DNA of 64,000 bases, from NCBI GenBank assembly GCA_003290465.1, contig CP030759.1, positions 722,672-786,671 of the forward strand, given 5' to 3'. The notes under the pieces were generated by a model. It was not told where the DNA came from and searched no databases. It saw only the letters and a program-made list of their open reading frames with translations. The DNA comes from Candidatus Sumerlaea chitinivorans. Lineage in GTDB: Bacteria > Sumerlaeota > Sumerlaeia > Sumerlaeales > Sumerlaeaceae. The position numbers and the translations under genes were made by a program. This document shows positions 36,864-43,986 of this stretch, in pieces (within the stretch, counting starts at the first letter, position 1; the number at the start of each line of letters is the position of its first letter).

Positions 36864-38483
36864 TCACTGGGCTGGGGGATTCTCCGAAAGGGATGAAACG
36901 CATCGGCGGGCAATCTCTTCCAGCTGCTGAGGTGCGTGCGCACGCACAAACTGCTGGAACGTCTCACCGTTTTGCGCCCATGCAAGATAAGCTTCGTAAA
37001 GATCCCCAATCGCCTGCCCAATCACTGAGGAGGGGATTTTCTTTGCCACCGCTTCTGCAAAGGCACGTTGGGACCCGATGCCACCGCCCAGCAGAATGTC
37101 ATACGCTTCCACGCTCTGGCCGTTCACTTTGGTCAGACCGCCGCGTAGGCCAATGTCTGCGATCGAATTCTGCCCGCAATTGTTTGGGCAACCGCTAAAG
37201 TGAATTCGTACTTTCCGTGACGCCCCGGGGAATCGCTCCTCGAGCTGCCCGGCAATTCGCCTTGCCAATTCTTTGGTCTCCGTGATGGCGAGGTTGCAAA
37301 ACTCAATGCCCGTGCAGGAGACCAAGAACCGCTTGAAAATTGACGGACGATAATCAAAGCCATTCACTTTCAAGTGATCGCAAAGGGCACTCAGACGCGA
37401 TTCCGGCACGTGCGTAATAATAAAATTCTGCTTATTTGTGTTCCGGATGGTTGCTTGAGTCGAGAATTCGTCGGCGATGTCTGCCAAACGGATGAGTGCG
37501 TCTCCATTTGTTCGCCCCACAGTCACTCCCACGCCCACGTAGTATAGCCCCTCTTGTTTTTGTGGGGTAATACCAAGATGGTCGTCCTCAGCATCCGGCG
37601 GTGGGGGAGGAGGGGTAAAGCGCTCCAGTTGGTAACCGATCTTTTCTTCGATCATCTCCCGGAAACGGTCGGGGCCCACGCCAATCTTTGGGTCGTGGAT
37701 CAGGAACTTGAGCCGAGCGCGGCCGCGGTCCTGACGTAAGACATCACTATCCCTAAAAATCTCCGCAATCGCCCGAACGACCTCGAAGACCTCTTCAAAA
37801 CGCAGGAAGACGCCGAGGTCGGCAGCAAAGTAGGGTTTTGTGCTCAGCCCGCCCCCCACCATGAGACCAAAGCCGACTTCGTGTTTACCATTCGTGATGC
37901 GCTCCGTGCCGTAGACGCCGATGTCGTTGATGTCTGGCTGAGCGCACCGCAAACGGCACCCAGAAATAGAGATCTTAAATTTCCTGGGGAGGTTTGAAAA
38001 ATCACGGTTTCCAGTGAGATAAGTGCTCACCTTCTTCACGAGGGGCGAGGCATCGCAATACTCGCTTGCGTCAATCCCAGCTACTGGGCAGCCAACCACG
38101 TTGCGTGTGACGTCGCCGCAAGCCCCAACTGTGAGAAGCCCCACCCGATGCAACCGCCGGAAGATCTCTGGCACGTCTTCAATTCGAACCCAATGGAGTT
38201 GGTAGTTTTGCCGCGTTGTAATGTCAACGAGGCCCCGGGCAAACTCATTCGCAATTTCACCGACCGCACGGATTTGGTTGGCGAGGAGGTCGCCGTTGGG
38301 GATCTTGATCCGCATCATGAAGTAGCCGTCTTTGGGCCGCTGCTGGTACAGGCCATACCACTTAAAAAGGTCAATAAACTCGCGGTCCATTTTTTCAAAG
38401 CCGACTTCGGCCGCCCGCATGATATCGGCTAAGACGTCCAACCCATCTTTTTGTTGTTTGAGCTCTTCAACTTTGTTTGGCAT
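36864..38483 (-). CDS. Siroheme nitrite/sulfite reductase (ferredoxin-type)
   Basis: This enzyme reduces nitrite to ammonia or sulfite to sulfide at a siroheme coupled to a [4Fe-4S] cluster. The 539-aa product has two ferrodoxin-like half-domain pairs. Siroheme-contacting segments are TTRQNYQLHWVRIEDV near residue 92 and GACGDVTRNVVGCPVAG near 120, with KFKISISGCRLRCAQPDIND near 168. Cluster cysteines are in SCTGIEFCNLAITETK near 390 and FSGCPNNCGQNSIADIGLRG near 430. Sequence alone does not decide between nitrite and sulfite. A ribosome site GGAG lies 5 nt before the start, and a palindrome overlaps the likely promoter zone at 38493-38515. No partner nitrate reductase gene is present. Confidence 0.9.
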   Translation of the reverse strand: MPNKVEELKQQKDGLDVLADIMRAAEVGFEKMDREFIDLFKWYGLYQQRPKDGYFMMRIKIPNGDLLANQIRAVGEIANEFARGLVDITTRQNYQLHWVRIEDVPEIFRRLHRVGLLTVGACGDVTRNVVGCPVAGIDASEYCDASPLVKKVSTYLTGNRDFSNLPRKFKISISGCRLRCAQPDINDIGVYGTERITNGKHEVGFGLMVGGGLSTKPYFAADLGVFLRFEEVFEVVRAIAEIFRDSDVLRQDRGRARLKFLIHDPKIGVGPDRFREMIEEKIGYQLERFTPPPPPPDAEDDHLGITPQKQEGLYYVGVGVTVGRTNGDALIRLADIADEFSTQATIRNTNKQNFIITHVPESRLSALCDHLKVNGFDYRPSIFKRFLVSCTGIEFCNLAITETKELARRIAGQLEERFPGASRKVRIHFSGCPNNCGQNSIADIGLRGGLTKVNGQSVEAYDILLGGGIGSQRAFAEAVAKKIPSSVIGQAIGDLYEAYLAWAQNGETFQQFVRAHAPQQLEEIARRCVSSLSENPPAQ

Positions 38484-38944
38484 TGGAGTTCTCTATAAAA
38501 ATAGTAGAGTTATAGGCTAAGTAATGCTACGTGTCCCGCTCGCCTTTATTCGCACCCAGTAGTCTGATTATTATTTCCGCAAGCACCGGGCGTGTAATCA
38601 GCCGTTTTCATTGAAAGTCTGGCATATCCAGGTCTGCGGGAACCAAGGCGCCTTGCTGGATTCCCGACGTGTAATGGGTATCGTTTTGTTCAAGCGGTGT
38701 AGCCGTTGGATCACTTTATTCAGTTTTTCGCCGGCCGTACCCGTTGGAACTGACGTAAGCGCGCTATAAACAAGGAATATTCAAATAGGTCACTCCATCG
38801 CCGATGTTCAGAGCTTCTCTGATCAAGCTGCCCAAATAGTGGTAAACCTCGTCCCGGGACTCAGCAGTACTCAAGCTAATTGGGGCCGCCGCTTTGTCGT
38901 CTGGAACCCCGGCGGGATGGGCGTTGGACGCCTACACAACGTCT
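38484..38944. other. 461-bp intergenic region upstream of the reductase
   Basis: This stretch lies downstream of the GKRP-like gene and upstream of the reductase gene, both on the minus strand. I see no ORF worth calling and no riboswitch that I can name. Apart from the inverted repeat at 38493-38515 it shows only scattered short repeats. Its length allows for a regulated leader or a small RNA. Confidence 0.4.
38493..38515 (-). promoter_or_regulatory. AT-rich inverted repeat before the nitrite/sulfite reductase
   Basis: CTATA at 38493-38497 is mirrored by TATAG at 38511-38515, with a nested CTCTA/TAGAG repeat (38491-38509) overlapping it, about 10-30 nt before the start codon. On the minus strand it contains TATAAC, a plausible -10. 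Such a site could bind a Rrf2- or Crp-like regulator of nitrogen or sulfur genes, but no consensus is matched closely enough to name one. Confidence 0.3.
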
Positions 38945-40675
38945 TCATTTGGCAGCGCGCTCTGCACTGACGTGCTCGCTGATTGCCATCCGAACGATGG
39001 GGTTTCGGGCAAGAACTTCACAGGCTTGTCGGTAATTAAAGAGCCCCGTGGCGATCAACAGCGCCTTTGGCACCACCTTCTCAACCTTTTGGGAGACCTC
39101 GATACACTCGCTGATTGTGGCATTGCGCTGAGAGGCGGTGAGTTCGTCTGTCTCGAAGATAGCGCGCAGGAGAGCTTCAAGCGCCGTGTCCATGTCGACG
39201 CCGATCAGGTCCATGATGATTCCCAACGTCCGGTGGAAGAGCTTGTTGTTTGAAATGCGCAAGTCCACCATTCGATTCCCGTAAACTTTTCCGGCAAGGA
39301 TATGGGCTCCCGTGGTCAACGCGTTTAGGACAAGTTTGAAACTAAGTTCGGTGGTCGCGACGCCGAAGACGTCGTCTTCACCCATGCACACATTGACAAC
39401 GAGAACGTTCCCAGGAGTCGGATGCTCACCCCACCCCACAGCGGCACACTTTACGCCGCGCTTGTGTATTTCCGGTACGAGGCTAACGGCACTTGGCACG
39501 TTGCCTAGGATGACGCAGAGGTCATTTTCTGACAACTGCGGCAGCTTGTCGTTTCGAAAATCCTCAATTGAGACGCGATAATGGGGTGCGCGGCCCGAAA
39601 GATCCACGCTCCCATCCGGGTAAAGCGTTCGCCATCCTCCTTCGACGAACCCACGAACGTCTTCAAAAGCAGCCCCGAAAGTGGGTGGACACTCGGACGC
39701 GTCGATCAGTCCTAAGATGCCAGCATCTGGTTCGGGGCGAGAACTTTTCGCACTGCGGCCGGCTCCACCCAAGTAATAGATGTGTCCTTTCGTTCGCAGT
39801 GTGGCTCCGCCTAATTCCACAAGTTGGGATATTTCAGAAATGCCGTGGTAAGTGCATCGGTAGGCGCGCTCATAACGCTCGAATGCATCGCGTACGAACT
39901 GTTGGACGCTCTCTTTGGGCAGTTTTCCCAAGAGCTGCAAACGAACTGCAGCAAAGAGGACCTCCAGAAGGATTTTAGTCGCGGTTCCACTTTTCATTCG
40001 GGTGGAGCCGGTGATCGGTTCGGGGCCAATGACGGGATTCAATAATGCGCCATTCGAAGCTGCTGCGACTTTTTCAGCTGTTGCCTTAAATGGCCACGGC
40101 CACCCTTCCACTGGCGTGGTGCGGGCGAGCTCCAAAGGGTTAAATCCCAAGAGCACCGCTTTCCAATTTGGTTGCTGGAGCGCATACTCCAATTGTCCAG
40201 CAATGTACGGCGCACTAAAGCCGCAAGTAATCCCAACGTAGAACACGTGCTGACTGTTTTGAGCTATCGCCTCAAGGTCGCGTTGGGCCTGATATGGATC
40301 ATCCTCTGCTCCTTCTTGGGCCTGAATCAAGGCTGGGGGGCCGCCGGCCAGAAGAAACCGGAAGGGTGACGGACTCGGCCACCCGGGAAGATGATTGAAC
40401 TCCCGCGCAATGAACATAGCCAATCGGCCACTGGTACCTGCCCCGCTAAGAACAACAAGCCCATCTCCTTGGGAGAGGATGTTTGCGCACCAGTCTGTAA
40501 GCTCAGCCATGCGCTCCAAGGTGTCGCTGTCGTAAAGCCCCGGATAGGTCCCGTAACCCGCAAATATCTGTGCGTCCGTCTGACGCAGCAGTCGCACAAT
40601 TCCGAGTGGGGAAGCGAGATCAATGTCGCCCGTCAGTAGATTAGGGGTTTCCGTAATTGAACGGCTATGCTTCAT
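38945..40675 (-). CDS. Tandem-SIS protein resembling glucokinase regulatory protein and MurQ
   Basis: The 576-aa product (ATG with GGGAGAGG upstream; a TTG 12 nt earlier was rejected) holds two SIS sugar-phosphate domains. The first, about residues 50-260, has LSGAGTSGRLAMF near 75, GITCGFSAPYIAGQLEYAL near 150 and GPEPITGSTRMKSGTATKIL near 222, a block shared by MurQ etherases and by animal glucokinase regulatory protein (GKRP). The second, about 290-510, has GHIYYLGGAGRSAKSS and GNRMVDLRISNNKLFHRTLG. MurQ (about 300 aa) has only one SIS domain, while human GKRP (625 aa) has two plus a cap; the C-terminal helices here match the cap position. A role in N-acetylmuramic acid 6-phosphate or fructose-phosphate sensing is possible, not shown. 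Confidence 0.85.
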   Translation of the reverse strand: MKHSRSITETPNLLTGDIDLASPLGIVRLLRQTDAQIFAGYGTYPGLYDSDTLERMAELTDWCANILSQGDGLVVLSGAGTSGRLAMFIAREFNHLPGWPSPSPFRFLLAGGPPALIQAQEGAEDDPYQAQRDLEAIAQNSQHVFYVGITCGFSAPYIAGQLEYALQQPNWKAVLLGFNPLELARTTPVEGWPWPFKATAEKVAAASNGALLNPVIGPEPITGSTRMKSGTATKILLEVLFAAVRLQLLGKLPKESVQQFVRDAFERYERAYRCTYHGISEISQLVELGGATLRTKGHIYYLGGAGRSAKSSRPEPDAGILGLIDASECPPTFGAAFEDVRGFVEGGWRTLYPDGSVDLSGRAPHYRVSIEDFRNDKLPQLSENDLCVILGNVPSAVSLVPEIHKRGVKCAAVGWGEHPTPGNVLVVNVCMGEDDVFGVATTELSFKLVLNALTTGAHILAGKVYGNRMVDLRISNNKLFHRTLGIIMDLIGVDMDTALEALLRAIFETDELTASQRNATISECIEVSQKVEKVVPKALLIATGLFNYRQACEVLARNPIVRMAISEHVSAERAAK

Positions 40676-40798
40676 GACCTCTCCCAACTTTTAAAGATTC
40701 GTCCGCACCGTGTAAACATCGGCAAAACTGGAGTCATGAATTTCAACTCGCAACCGAATTTGAAGGATACCTCGAAATCACGGATAGACGCCTAATGC

Positions 40799-41827
40799 CT
40801 ATCGCACGCTGATTGGATAAGAAAACTCGCTCCAGTAGGTGCCATCGGCTCGCGCTGGGACAATAGCCATGTGAAACAAATTCGACTGCGTGCCATCGGT
40901 ATTCCACCGCGCTACGCGGGCACGCAAACCATCAAGCGTAAAGCTTAGTTCGAACTTGGAGTCTTGAACCCGAGCACGCTTTTCCAAAAGGGGAACACCG
41001 CCTTGTTCGGGCATCACAAAAAGCACGACTTCGCGGCTTGTGGGTGGGGCGGTGCCAGAAATCGAATATGTGGAGCCCAAGCGCATCAATTTGCCCGGCA
41101 TATCCGTCAAGTGTAAAATAACTCCGTTAATTGCAAAAGCGGTGAGTGGGAAGGGGGACGGCCCAGCAAATTTGCTCACTCCAGAACCGTCATTTGCCGA
41201 AGTGTAAATGTGGCCTTCTTTCGGAATGCCGTCCCCTGCAACATCGAGAAATGTGGCTCGGAGAGACTCTCCCAATCCATTCTGAACTTGGAAATGTAGA
41301 TGGGGACGCGAGGAATAACCGGTGTTTCCGCTCAGTGCGATCACCTGTCCGCCGCGCACGATTTCGCCCTCGCGTACCTTCACAGAATTCGCCTGAAGGT
41401 GGAGATACTCCGTGTAAATCCCGTTGCCGTGATCCAGCACAACCATATTTGCCTTTTGGCGGAGCGAAGGATGAGTGCCACCCTCTACGGAATCTTGCTT
41501 AATACAGACTACCATGCCGTCGGCTACTGCGCATACCGGCGACCCCAAGGGCATAGCAAAATCCCATGCGTAAAAGCTGTAACCCGAGTGAGAGAAAGAA
41601 CCACCAATCCCTTGAATAACGGGGTAGGACATGCCGGCCGGATAGGGCAATTTCATGCGCAGGTCGGCTGCATGCGTTCGTTCTGGTTCCACCTGCTCTG
41701 TATCGGGATCGGCGGTGCCGCGGGCGGCTGGGATCTCAGGGGCAAACAAGAGAATGATAAGCAGGGCTCCTAAGAAGACCCCCGCCTTGGTGTGCTCCGG
41801 TAGTGCAGTTTTTATTAAAGGACTCAT
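40799..41827 (-). CDS. Exported M23-family metallopeptidase
   Basis: The 342-aa product begins with a hydrophobic signal segment (residues 15-32). The peptidase domain, about 70-200, shows the zinc motif first half in FSHSGYSFYAWDFAMPLGSPV (H and D), then VLDHGNGIYTEYLHLQANSV and the second zinc motif RPHLHFQVQ near 175. M23 enzymes cut peptidoglycan cross-bridges or stem peptides. A C-terminal beta-rich domain (residues 220-340) has no recognisable family. It lies 123 bp upstream of the GKRP/MurQ-like gene on the same strand, and both could deal with cell-wall fragments. Divergent from the glycan transferase gene, 215 bp away. Confidence 0.9.
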   Translation of the reverse strand: MSPLIKTALPEHTKAGVFLGALLIILLFAPEIPAARGTADPDTEQVEPERTHAADLRMKLPYPAGMSYPVIQGIGGSFSHSGYSFYAWDFAMPLGSPVCAVADGMVVCIKQDSVEGGTHPSLRQKANMVVLDHGNGIYTEYLHLQANSVKVREGEIVRGGQVIALSGNTGYSSRPHLHFQVQNGLGESLRATFLDVAGDGIPKEGHIYTSANDGSGVSKFAGPSPFPLTAFAINGVILHLTDMPGKLMRLGSTYSISGTAPPTSREVVLFVMPEQGGVPLLEKRARVQDSKFELSFTLDGLRARVARWNTDGTQSNLFHMAIVPARADGTYWSEFSYPISVR

Positions 41828-42042
41828 CGGACGGTTTATTTAGCGAAAGACGATGAGCTGGACGCAAGCGTGACGTTCGAACCGTTGCCAGGGGTGCAAA
41901 GGTGGCAATTTTGGCAAGGCGGAAGTGTGTCGCATGCCAGTTATGGTACATGTCCCCACCGCGATTTGGTGCAAAGAGCGTGGAGAAGAAATGGAATTGA
42001 TTTTCCCCGAGCATTTTTCTCCCTCTTCAATGAGTACAACCA

Positions 42043-43107
42043 ATGGCGACGGTGAGCGTGAACCTTTTTTGGAAGATCTTTGTTTTTACGGCGGCGATCG
42101 CGTTTGTCGGGACTTGGGTCGTGCGTGCGGTCATGCGGCGCATGGGGGTGTACGATGCGCCGTCAGAGAGCCGTAAGATCCATCGCGAACCCGTCGCTTA
42201 TGAAGGGGGAGTGGCGATCTACGTGGCGTTTGTAGCGGGCCTACTCTTTTACCAAGCTCTGGAGGGTACCTCCCTATTCTTTCGGGACGACATAAAAGCG
42301 ATGATTCTTGGTGCGACGTTGACGGTGGCGTTAGGGGTTGCCGATGACCTCTTAGATCTCCGCCCAGTCATTAAGCTTTTGGGCCAAATTGGAATCGGAT
42401 ATGTCATGTATCGGGCGGGATTTCAGGTGGAGCGCATTAGCAACCCCTTCGGTCAAGAGATCCAGTTTTGGCCGTGGGTGAGTATGATTGGGACAATCCT
42501 TTGGTACGCAATTCTCATGAATGGCATCAACATGATCGACGGACTTGACGGTTTGGCGGCGGGGATCGTTGCCATTACGTGCATCACATTGGGGGCTATA
42601 AGCGTAGATCTTGGCCAACCCTTGGCGGCGGTGTTGGCGCTGATTGGCGCCGCGGCGTGTTTCGGCTTTTTGCCCTTCAACTTCAATCCGGCTACGATTT
42701 TCATGGGCGATGCGGGCAGTTTGCTGCTCGGGTTCCTTTTAGCCTCCATCACGCTTCTCTCCAGCTCAAAAGCGCCGGCTTTGCTGACACTCTTGATTCC
42801 GGTGTTGGCTGTGGCACTACCACTCTTCGAGACGCTCTTTGCGTTCGTTCGACGTATCCTCCGCGGACAAAACCCATTTGCGGGGGATCGAAGTCACCTT
42901 CACCATCGCTTCCTCGATCTCGGATTCTCTGTTCGCAGGACCGTGCTTATTTTTTACTACTTCACGGCATATTTGGGGGTGACTGCATACGTTCTCCAAC
43001 GATTGGATTCGCGAAGCACCATCCTCGTCGCGATCCTCATCGCAATCGGTCTGCTTCTGCTGGCCAACAGCATGGGCTACCTTCGGGACAAATCTGCAGC
43101 ACGCTAA
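42043..43107 (+). CDS. WecA/MraY-type undecaprenyl-phosphate sugar-1-phosphate transferase
   Basis: This family moves a GlcNAc-1-phosphate (or similar) from a UDP-sugar to undecaprenyl phosphate, the first step of a surface glycan. The 354-aa product is polytopic with about 10-11 transmembrane helices. Signatures in order: KIHREPVAYEGGVAIYVAF near residue 47, GVADDLLDLRPVIKLLGQI near 98 with the catalytic DD, NGINMIDGLDGLAAG near 166, FLPFNFNPATIFMGDAGSL near 208, and DRSHLHHRFLDLGFS near 285 with the cytoplasmic HxHH loop. It lacks features that would make it the peptidoglycan enzyme MraY, so WecA/TagO-type is preferred. Its end overlaps the convergent plsC by 4 bp. Confidence 0.93.
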   Translation: MATVSVNLFWKIFVFTAAIAFVGTWVVRAVMRRMGVYDAPSESRKIHREPVAYEGGVAIYVAFVAGLLFYQALEGTSLFFRDDIKAMILGATLTVALGVADDLLDLRPVIKLLGQIGIGYVMYRAGFQVERISNPFGQEIQFWPWVSMIGTILWYAILMNGINMIDGLDGLAAGIVAITCITLGAISVDLGQPLAAVLALIGAAACFGFLPFNFNPATIFMGDAGSLLLGFLLASITLLSSSKAPALLTLLIPVLAVALPLFETLFAFVRRILRGQNPFAGDRSHLHHRFLDLGFSVRRTVLIFYYFTAYLGVTAYVLQRLDSRSTILVAILIAIGLLLLANSMGYLRDKSAAR

Positions 43108-43820
43108 CGCCGGCTCTTGATCCGCTTCAGTCGTTCCCATGCTGCTAATCGTCGCTGAATTGGTTGAGCGATTTGTGCATTCACGTGGGGAATGGCTTCC
43201 TTGATCTGATGGCGATCTTCGAGCTTTGGCACCGAGATTGGCTGGTGATATTTGACCACAATTGGCCGAAACCAACGAGGTAGAAGATGGTGCTTCGGCC
43301 AAGCTTCGTAGGCCCCAATGATGCTTACCGGCACAAGGGTGGCACCCGTGGTCAATGCGATACGTGCTGCTCCCTGTTCAAAGGGAGCCAGCTTTCCATC
43401 AGGACTTCGTCCGCCCTCAGGGAAAATCAATACAACTTCATTGCGTTCCAACACGCGAATCGTCTGGGAAACGGCCCCTTTGTCCGCGCTTTTTAGTTTT
43501 ACAGGAAACGCGCCGTAAAGCGAGATAAACCATCCGAGGAGTGGAACGCGAAACAAGGGTTCCATTGCCATGAATCGCATCCGGTAGGGAATCCCTGCTG
43601 GCACGACCAACGCGTCGTAGTATGAAACGTGATTGGGAGTGATAATTGCGGGCCCATGATCCGGAAGCAGATTTTGGCAGCGGTAGCGCAAGAAGTGAAA
43701 GATTCGAAAGTACAGGATAAAAACAGCTCTGGTGATTTCCCACAACACGTTTGTCCGTAGAATATCCCCTCGCGGGCGAGCAAGGCCGGGAGCGTATCTC
43801 CTGATGAGTTTCATCCGCAT
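43104..43820 (-). CDS. plsC: 1-acyl-sn-glycerol-3-phosphate acyltransferase
   Basis: PlsC acylates lysophosphatidic acid to phosphatidic acid at the inner membrane. The 238-aa product has the catalytic NHVSYYDAL (NHx4D) near residue 66 and the glycerol-phosphate-binding FPEGGRSPDGKL near 135, with PVSIIGAYEAWPKH further on. The start ATG at 43820 has CAGGAG seven nt upstream; the ORF extends 27 codons further but without a ribosome site. A hydrophobic stretch precedes the motif. pgsA, plsY and gpsA for the same pathway are elsewhere in the window. Confidence 0.93.
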   Translation of the reverse strand: MRMKLIRRYAPGLARPRGDILRTNVLWEITRAVFILYFRIFHFLRYRCQNLLPDHGPAIITPNHVSYYDALVVPAGIPYRMRFMAMEPLFRVPLLGWFISLYGAFPVKLKSADKGAVSQTIRVLERNEVVLIFPEGGRSPDGKLAPFEQGAARIALTTGATLVPVSIIGAYEAWPKHHLLPRWFRPIVVKYHQPISVPKLEDRHQIKEAIPHVNAQIAQPIQRRLAAWERLKRIKSRR

Positions 43821-43986
43821 GTGCTCCTGAGAAAGGTCCTTTGTGCTAATTGCTCTCGCTGCTTCGGAAGCAACGTCGCCACCACATATGGCGCTCTGCA
43901 ACTGTTTCTTGAATTCTGAAGTAGTAAACTCTCGTCGCGTACTGTAGAGAAACTGTTAGCATGATGTTTTCACTGGAGCGTGAACA

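Follow-up and report, generated by a model that had tools for sequence, protein, structure and literature searches.

The 576-residue protein encoded at positions 38945–40675 of the window, the 64,000-nucleotide stretch of DNA analysed here, is very probably a fused, pseudo-dimeric MurNAc-6-phosphate etherase with one composite active site. As confirmed by profile searches and by its predicted structure, this Sumerlaeota protein has the three-part build of the animal liver regulator GKRP, which is a drug target and the product of a major human metabolic-trait gene. The evidence consists of the architecture, the predicted fold, the conservation of the site, the pathway partner, the exclusion of ordinary MurQ, and the fusion ancestry shared with vertebrate GKRP; from it we infer the etherase activity and the operation of a single site. 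The preserved active site and the companion genes suggest a working enzyme of cell-wall-sugar recycling, and a glucokinase-regulator function is unlikely.

The preliminary description of this DNA had reported a single continuous frame in the interval. The frame lies on the minus strand, which that description did not name, and the plus strand of the interval contains many stop codons. Translation starts from the ATG at 40675–40673 and ends at the stop codon at 38945–38947, and the blocks GAGTSGRLA and GITCGFSAPY, quoted previously, are both present in the encoded protein. An in-frame TTG is located at 40687, four codons upstream of the ATG; the ATG is preferred because it fits the ribosome-binding site as well as the N-termini of related proteins. 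The scan for promoters and terminators yielded no signal above chance. Since full-length relatives with 39–62% identity are encoded in 25 of 40 Sumerlaeota genomes, neither the open reading frame nor its architecture has arisen by chance. The features discussed below are the following, with the basis of each assignment in parentheses.

38945–40675, minus strand: predicted gene for a GKRP-type two-SIS MurNAc-6-phosphate etherase (open reading frame, Pfam, PDB match to GKRP, AlphaFold2/Foldseek).
40678–40685, minus strand: Shine-Dalgarno-like GGGAGAGG, just 5′ of the ATG (sequence).
39926–40675, minus strand: first MurQ-like copy, comprising the N-terminal ITE..N segment, helices, and SIS1, residues ~1–250 (Pfam GKRP_SIS_N, MurQ match, module alignment).
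39494–39838, minus strand: SIS2 core, residues 280–394, of the second MurQ-like copy (Pfam GKRP_SIS_2, MurQ match).
38981–39277, minus strand: helical C-terminal lid, residues 467–565, with ISNNKLF (Pfam GKRP-like_C, match to human ligand residues).
40304–40306, minus strand: Glu124 of EGAED in SIS1, equivalent to E. coli MurQ Glu114 and human GKRP Glu153 (alignment).
39692–39694, minus strand: Glu328 of DASECPPTFG in SIS2, equivalent to E. coli MurQ Glu83 and human GKRP Glu348 (alignment).
40799–41827, minus strand: M23 peptidase gene (PF01551), the upstream neighbour at a distance of 123 bp (Pfam).

How closely does the protein resemble GKRP? All three GKRP Pfam models match in order in one chain and exceed their curated cut-offs: GKRP_SIS_N at residues 65–165 (1.2e-32), GKRP_SIS_2 at residues 280–394 (2e-16), and GKRP-like_C at residues 467–565 (1.4e-27). 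These matches bear out the two SIS regions and the helical C-terminus that had been read from the sequence. When the single sequence was compared with the solved structures, it matched Xenopus GKRP over residues 4–541 (E 1.5e-93) and human GKRP over residues 6–565 (E 5e-88), and the MurQ structures were matched only in pieces (E ~9e-27). The alignment with vertebrate GKRP runs end to end with 35% identity, and a profile built from 26 bacterial long proteins reached GKRP over positions 3–576 with 528 bits. In addition, the AlphaFold2 model (pLDDT 90.0, pTM 0.91) has GKRP crystal structures as its best Foldseek matches over the whole length (TM 0.79–0.85, E 1e-41 to 5e-35), followed by MurQ. Profile matches, the full-length alignment, the predicted structure, and the fold search thus all uphold the GKRP-like layout proposed earlier. 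In the comparison with GKRP and MurQ that had been suggested as a check, the C-terminal half is modelled as a SIS fold plus a lid, and vertebrate GKRP (GKRP/GCKR; PDB 4BB9, 3W0L, 4LC9) has the same arrangement of SIS1, SIS2, and helical lid over the full length. The protein passes the NCBIfam subfamily model for MurNAc-6-phosphate etherase, NF003915 (197 bits, cut-off 168), and does not pass the equivalog TIGR00274 for ordinary single-SIS MurQ (178 bits, cut-off 302); it is therefore not classed as an ordinary single-SIS MurQ.

Ordinary MurQ (E. coli b2428; H. influenzae, 4LZJ/1NRI; Yersinia, 4S12) has one SIS domain in about 300 residues, whereas the long form is a 576-residue chain with two non-identical SIS halves, both of them MurQ-like. 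The first half corresponds to residues 1–208 of E. coli MurQ and the second half to residues 47–258, in both cases well above chance. The second half is accordingly another MurQ-like copy, and not the unrelated domain behind a plain MurQ that had been considered as a possible refutation. In comparison with ordinary MurQ, each copy is incomplete in its own way. The first copy contains the phosphate-binding loops GAGTSGR, ITCGFSAP, and TGSTRMK and has no lid, while the second copy keeps DASECPPTFG and the lid and has lost the phosphate loops, with TSGR and GSSRMK replaced.

An insertion of ~11–13 residues, GGAGRSAKSSRPEPDAG, is situated at the phosphate-loop position of SIS2 (residues ~303–320, window ~39716–39769). 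Members of the family to which the window belongs have it, whereas the other relatives shown do not. Residues 308–311 within the insertion are poorly predicted by AlphaFold2.

In human GKRP, the residues surrounding the fructose phosphate (F1P/F6P) converge from SIS-1, SIS-2, and the lid into one pocket (PMC4109836). In the alignment, 13 of the 19 contact positions listed in that work are identical in the 576-residue protein. The six differing positions, from human to bacterial, are Gly107 to Ala, His351 to Pro, Leu182 to Phe, Ser179 to Thr, Val180 to Cys, and Ser258 to Thr. In the lid, Asn476, Lys478, Leu479, and Arg482 are equivalent to the human ligand residues Asn512, Lys514, Leu515, and Arg518, respectively, and Lys478 also aligns with the lid lysine of MurQ. 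The long form shares with ordinary MurQ the residues equivalent to Glu83 and Glu114, the lid lysine, and the AnmK pathway context. We take MurQ Glu83 and Glu114 to be the catalytic and ring-opening residues, roles reportedly described by Jaeger and Mayer in 2008 and by Hadi in 2013.

The counterparts of Glu328, Glu124, and Lys478 are present in all 25 bacterial long forms of the alignment, and Glu328, provided by SIS2, is predicted to be the catalytic base. Glu92 of SIS1 was also considered, as it aligns with MurQ Glu83, and is found in only 8 of the 25 bacterial sequences; Glu328 was chosen over it because Glu328 is invariant in the bacterial long forms. Vertebrate GKRP also keeps both glutamates and the lysine and is reported to have no etherase activity, so these residues alone are no proof of catalysis.

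We propose that the protein would work in the following manner. AnmK, the kinase that gives MurNAc-6-phosphate from anhydro-MurNAc, would supply the substrate. In SIS1, the sugar phosphate would be held by GAGTSGR, ITCGFSAP, and TGSTRMK, and Glu124 would be contributed by the same domain. SIS2, with its own phosphate loops gone, would supply the catalytic Glu328. The C-terminal lid would then close the pocket with Lys478 and Arg482, and SIS1, SIS2, and the lid would thereby build one composite active site within one chain. At this site, MurNAc-6-phosphate would be converted to GlcNAc-6-phosphate and lactate, which is a step of peptidoglycan recycling.

The source genome, a single contig of 3,289,105 bases, contains one AnmK gene (G000:C1:413741–414895, E 4e-105). 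No ordinary MurQ was found in it, the other TIGR00274 matches being weak pieces elsewhere with at most 37 bits. The long form occurs in 25 of the 40 Sumerlaeota genomes and ordinary MurQ in 7 (six above the TIGR00274 cut-off and one interrupted by a contig end); one genome (G020) has a diverged two-SIS protein, and the remaining 7 have none of these. The long form and ordinary MurQ occur together in none of the 40 genomes (naive P = 3.5e-4); this P value ignores phylogeny, and since the distribution of the two forms follows taxonomic family, the non-overlap is in truth less significant. An etherase gene is present in all 18 AnmK-bearing Sumerlaeota (16 long, 2 ordinary), as compared to 15 of the 22 genomes without AnmK, with the diverged protein of G020 counted among the latter (Fisher P = 0.011, likewise ignoring phylogeny). 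Nine long-form genomes gave no AnmK match; several of them are incomplete, and MurNAc-6-phosphate could also derive from kinases other than AnmK. In the Sumerlaeota that have no ordinary MurQ, the long form may be the way to complete the recycling of anhydro-MurNAc.

Outside the phylum, the long form was detected in 3 of ~345 genomes: G167 and G304, which are the only two genomes sampled from their phylum, and G117, which has a partial copy. A contig scan with the single protein revealed one near relative, in a Candidatus Sumerlaeaceae MAG, with 62% identity. In the plasmid search, the matches listed were of the ordinary MurQ type only.

Could the protein instead act like GKRP itself, as a sugar-phosphate-sensing inhibitor of glucokinase or another sugar kinase, with no enzymatic activity? 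The GKRPs are its nearest solved relatives by both sequence and fold, and the fructose-phosphate pocket is mostly conserved; nevertheless, we consider such a role very improbable. GKRP contacts glucokinase through T440–Q443 and W461–L464 (PMC10355436) and through D413 and the position of P446 (PMC4109836), and none of these 10 positions is identical in the 576-residue protein, in which both loops are different; the loops are also variable among the bacteria. Moreover, the ECPPT(F/Y)G motif, which is altered to ECIHTFG in human and to ECVPTYQ in Xenopus, stays in nearly all of the bacterial long forms, with two having Val in place of the first Pro. The mutual exclusion of the long form and ordinary MurQ is also what one shared function predicts. 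A search for eukaryote-type hexokinase (PF00349) gave no match in the genome, which is a weak argument as the control search also matched nowhere. In comparison with vertebrate GKRP, the protein is thus a bacterial form that has ECPPTFG and an AnmK partner, replaces MurQ, and has none of the 10 glucokinase-contact positions conserved. A double role, in which the protein breaks down MurNAc-6-phosphate and also regulates a partner kinase by binding fructose phosphates, would fit the pocket common to GKRP and the common ancestor of the two-SIS family with a regulator. We give this little credence, because the positions of the protein-contact surface of GKRP are not conserved and the gene neighbourhoods showed no conserved kinase gene. 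It would be surprising if the bacterial two-SIS etherase already sensed hexose phosphates and bound a sugar kinase, such as AnmK or a bacterial glucokinase; if it did, the regulatory trait of GKRP would have its beginnings in a bacterial wall-recycling enzyme that was still active.

A different substrate also deserves consideration, since SIS enzymes readily switch chemistry. Streptomyces NagS has a MurQ-related SIS fold and a serine-lined phosphate site, yet it is a GlcNAc-6-phosphate dehydratase (PMC12680351), and the long form might similarly be an isomerase, dehydratase, or other lyase acting on another hexose phosphate. This is highly unlikely, in that the protein still has DASECPPTFG and EGAED, both of them MurQ motifs, and 16 of the 18 AnmK-bearing genomes would be left with no recognised MurNAc-6-phosphate etherase. 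NagS itself differs from the 576-residue protein in its single SIS domain and its different reaction (PMC12680351). We therefore favour the fused etherase. With regard to its origin, a recent gene transfer from a eukaryote to a bacterium would make the protein uninformative about the origin of GKRP. In the unrooted full-length tree, vertebrate GKRP is indeed placed among the bacterial sequences, but as a single long branch with a weak placement (83/75), and the long form is spread over 25 of the 40 genomes of the phylum at 39–62% identity and 3 of ~345 elsewhere, with deep branches. Such a transfer is hardly credible.

The tree of one- and two-SIS homologues, which had been proposed as a check, groups each half of the long form with its counterpart in vertebrate GKRP. 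The bacterial and vertebrate SIS1 modules form one group (100/100) and the SIS2 modules form another (100/100), while ordinary MurQ constitutes a third, weaker group (70/74). The long-branch warning for this tree affects the join of the first and second halves, and not the groupings. These groupings indicate that the fusion is older than the split between the bacterial and vertebrate proteins, and most simply the SIS fusion would have happened once, before the two forms separated. As the placement of vertebrate GKRP in the full-length tree is uncertain, no bacterial donor can be named.

Vertebrate GKRP is said to have evolved from a bacterial MurNAc-6-phosphate etherase, as reportedly published by Veiga-da-Cunha in 2009 (Biochem J 423:323), and GKRP descent from such an enzyme is therefore not new as an idea. 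What is added here appears to be a bacterial clade that is clearly delimited, has every part of the GKRP build, and seems to retain a functional site. This phylum-wide set, with its full GKRP build and apparently intact etherase site, would offer testable proxies for the GKRP ancestor. According to this model, the ancestor was a one-chain pseudo-dimer with one composite site, and the regulator could arise from it through the loss of catalysis and the gain of the glucokinase-contact loops.

Two further protein types were observed among the Sumerlaeota genomes. In G015 (L059:1–1473) and G011 (L060:1–1002), a BadF/BcrA-type ATPase (kinase) domain precedes ordinary MurQ in one fused protein; PF01869 matches at 6.5e-13 in L059 and is below the cut-off in the truncated L060. 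This fusion may be a MurNAc kinase-etherase, in genomes without AnmK. The diverged protein of G020 (L061:712–2532, minus strand) is a 607-residue, two-SIS-like protein, in which ECPPTFG is changed to ERSPTFS and the lid is below the cut-off. It possibly represents a sister family with the etherase activity lost or the substrate changed.

The M23 wall peptidase gene lies on the same strand as the etherase gene, with the 123-bp gap that had been described. The M23 adjacency is found in four other genomes, all within the family (G001, G003, G005, G007). Outside the family, the neighbours of the long form are mostly unrelated and include O-antigen ligase, GH77, PLP enzyme, and aldehyde dehydrogenase genes. 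Since this adjacency does not extend beyond the family, the M23 neighbour is weak as functional evidence. The earlier assignment to wall-sugar recycling, which had cited this neighbour, is favoured on other grounds: the co-occurrence with AnmK, the exclusion of ordinary MurQ, and the conserved catalytic residues. In G117, from another phylum, an AmiA-like N-acetylmuramoyl-alanine amidase gene (PF07313, 1.7e-23) directly follows the long form (L084:3–2239), and the M23 and amidase neighbours agree weakly with wall recycling. Within the window, the gene order at 36864–43901 is plsC-like, glycosyl-1-phosphate transferase, M23, GKRP-like, and sulfite-nitrite reductase, and all or part of it recurs in several genera belonging to the family (L070, L087, L088, L089).
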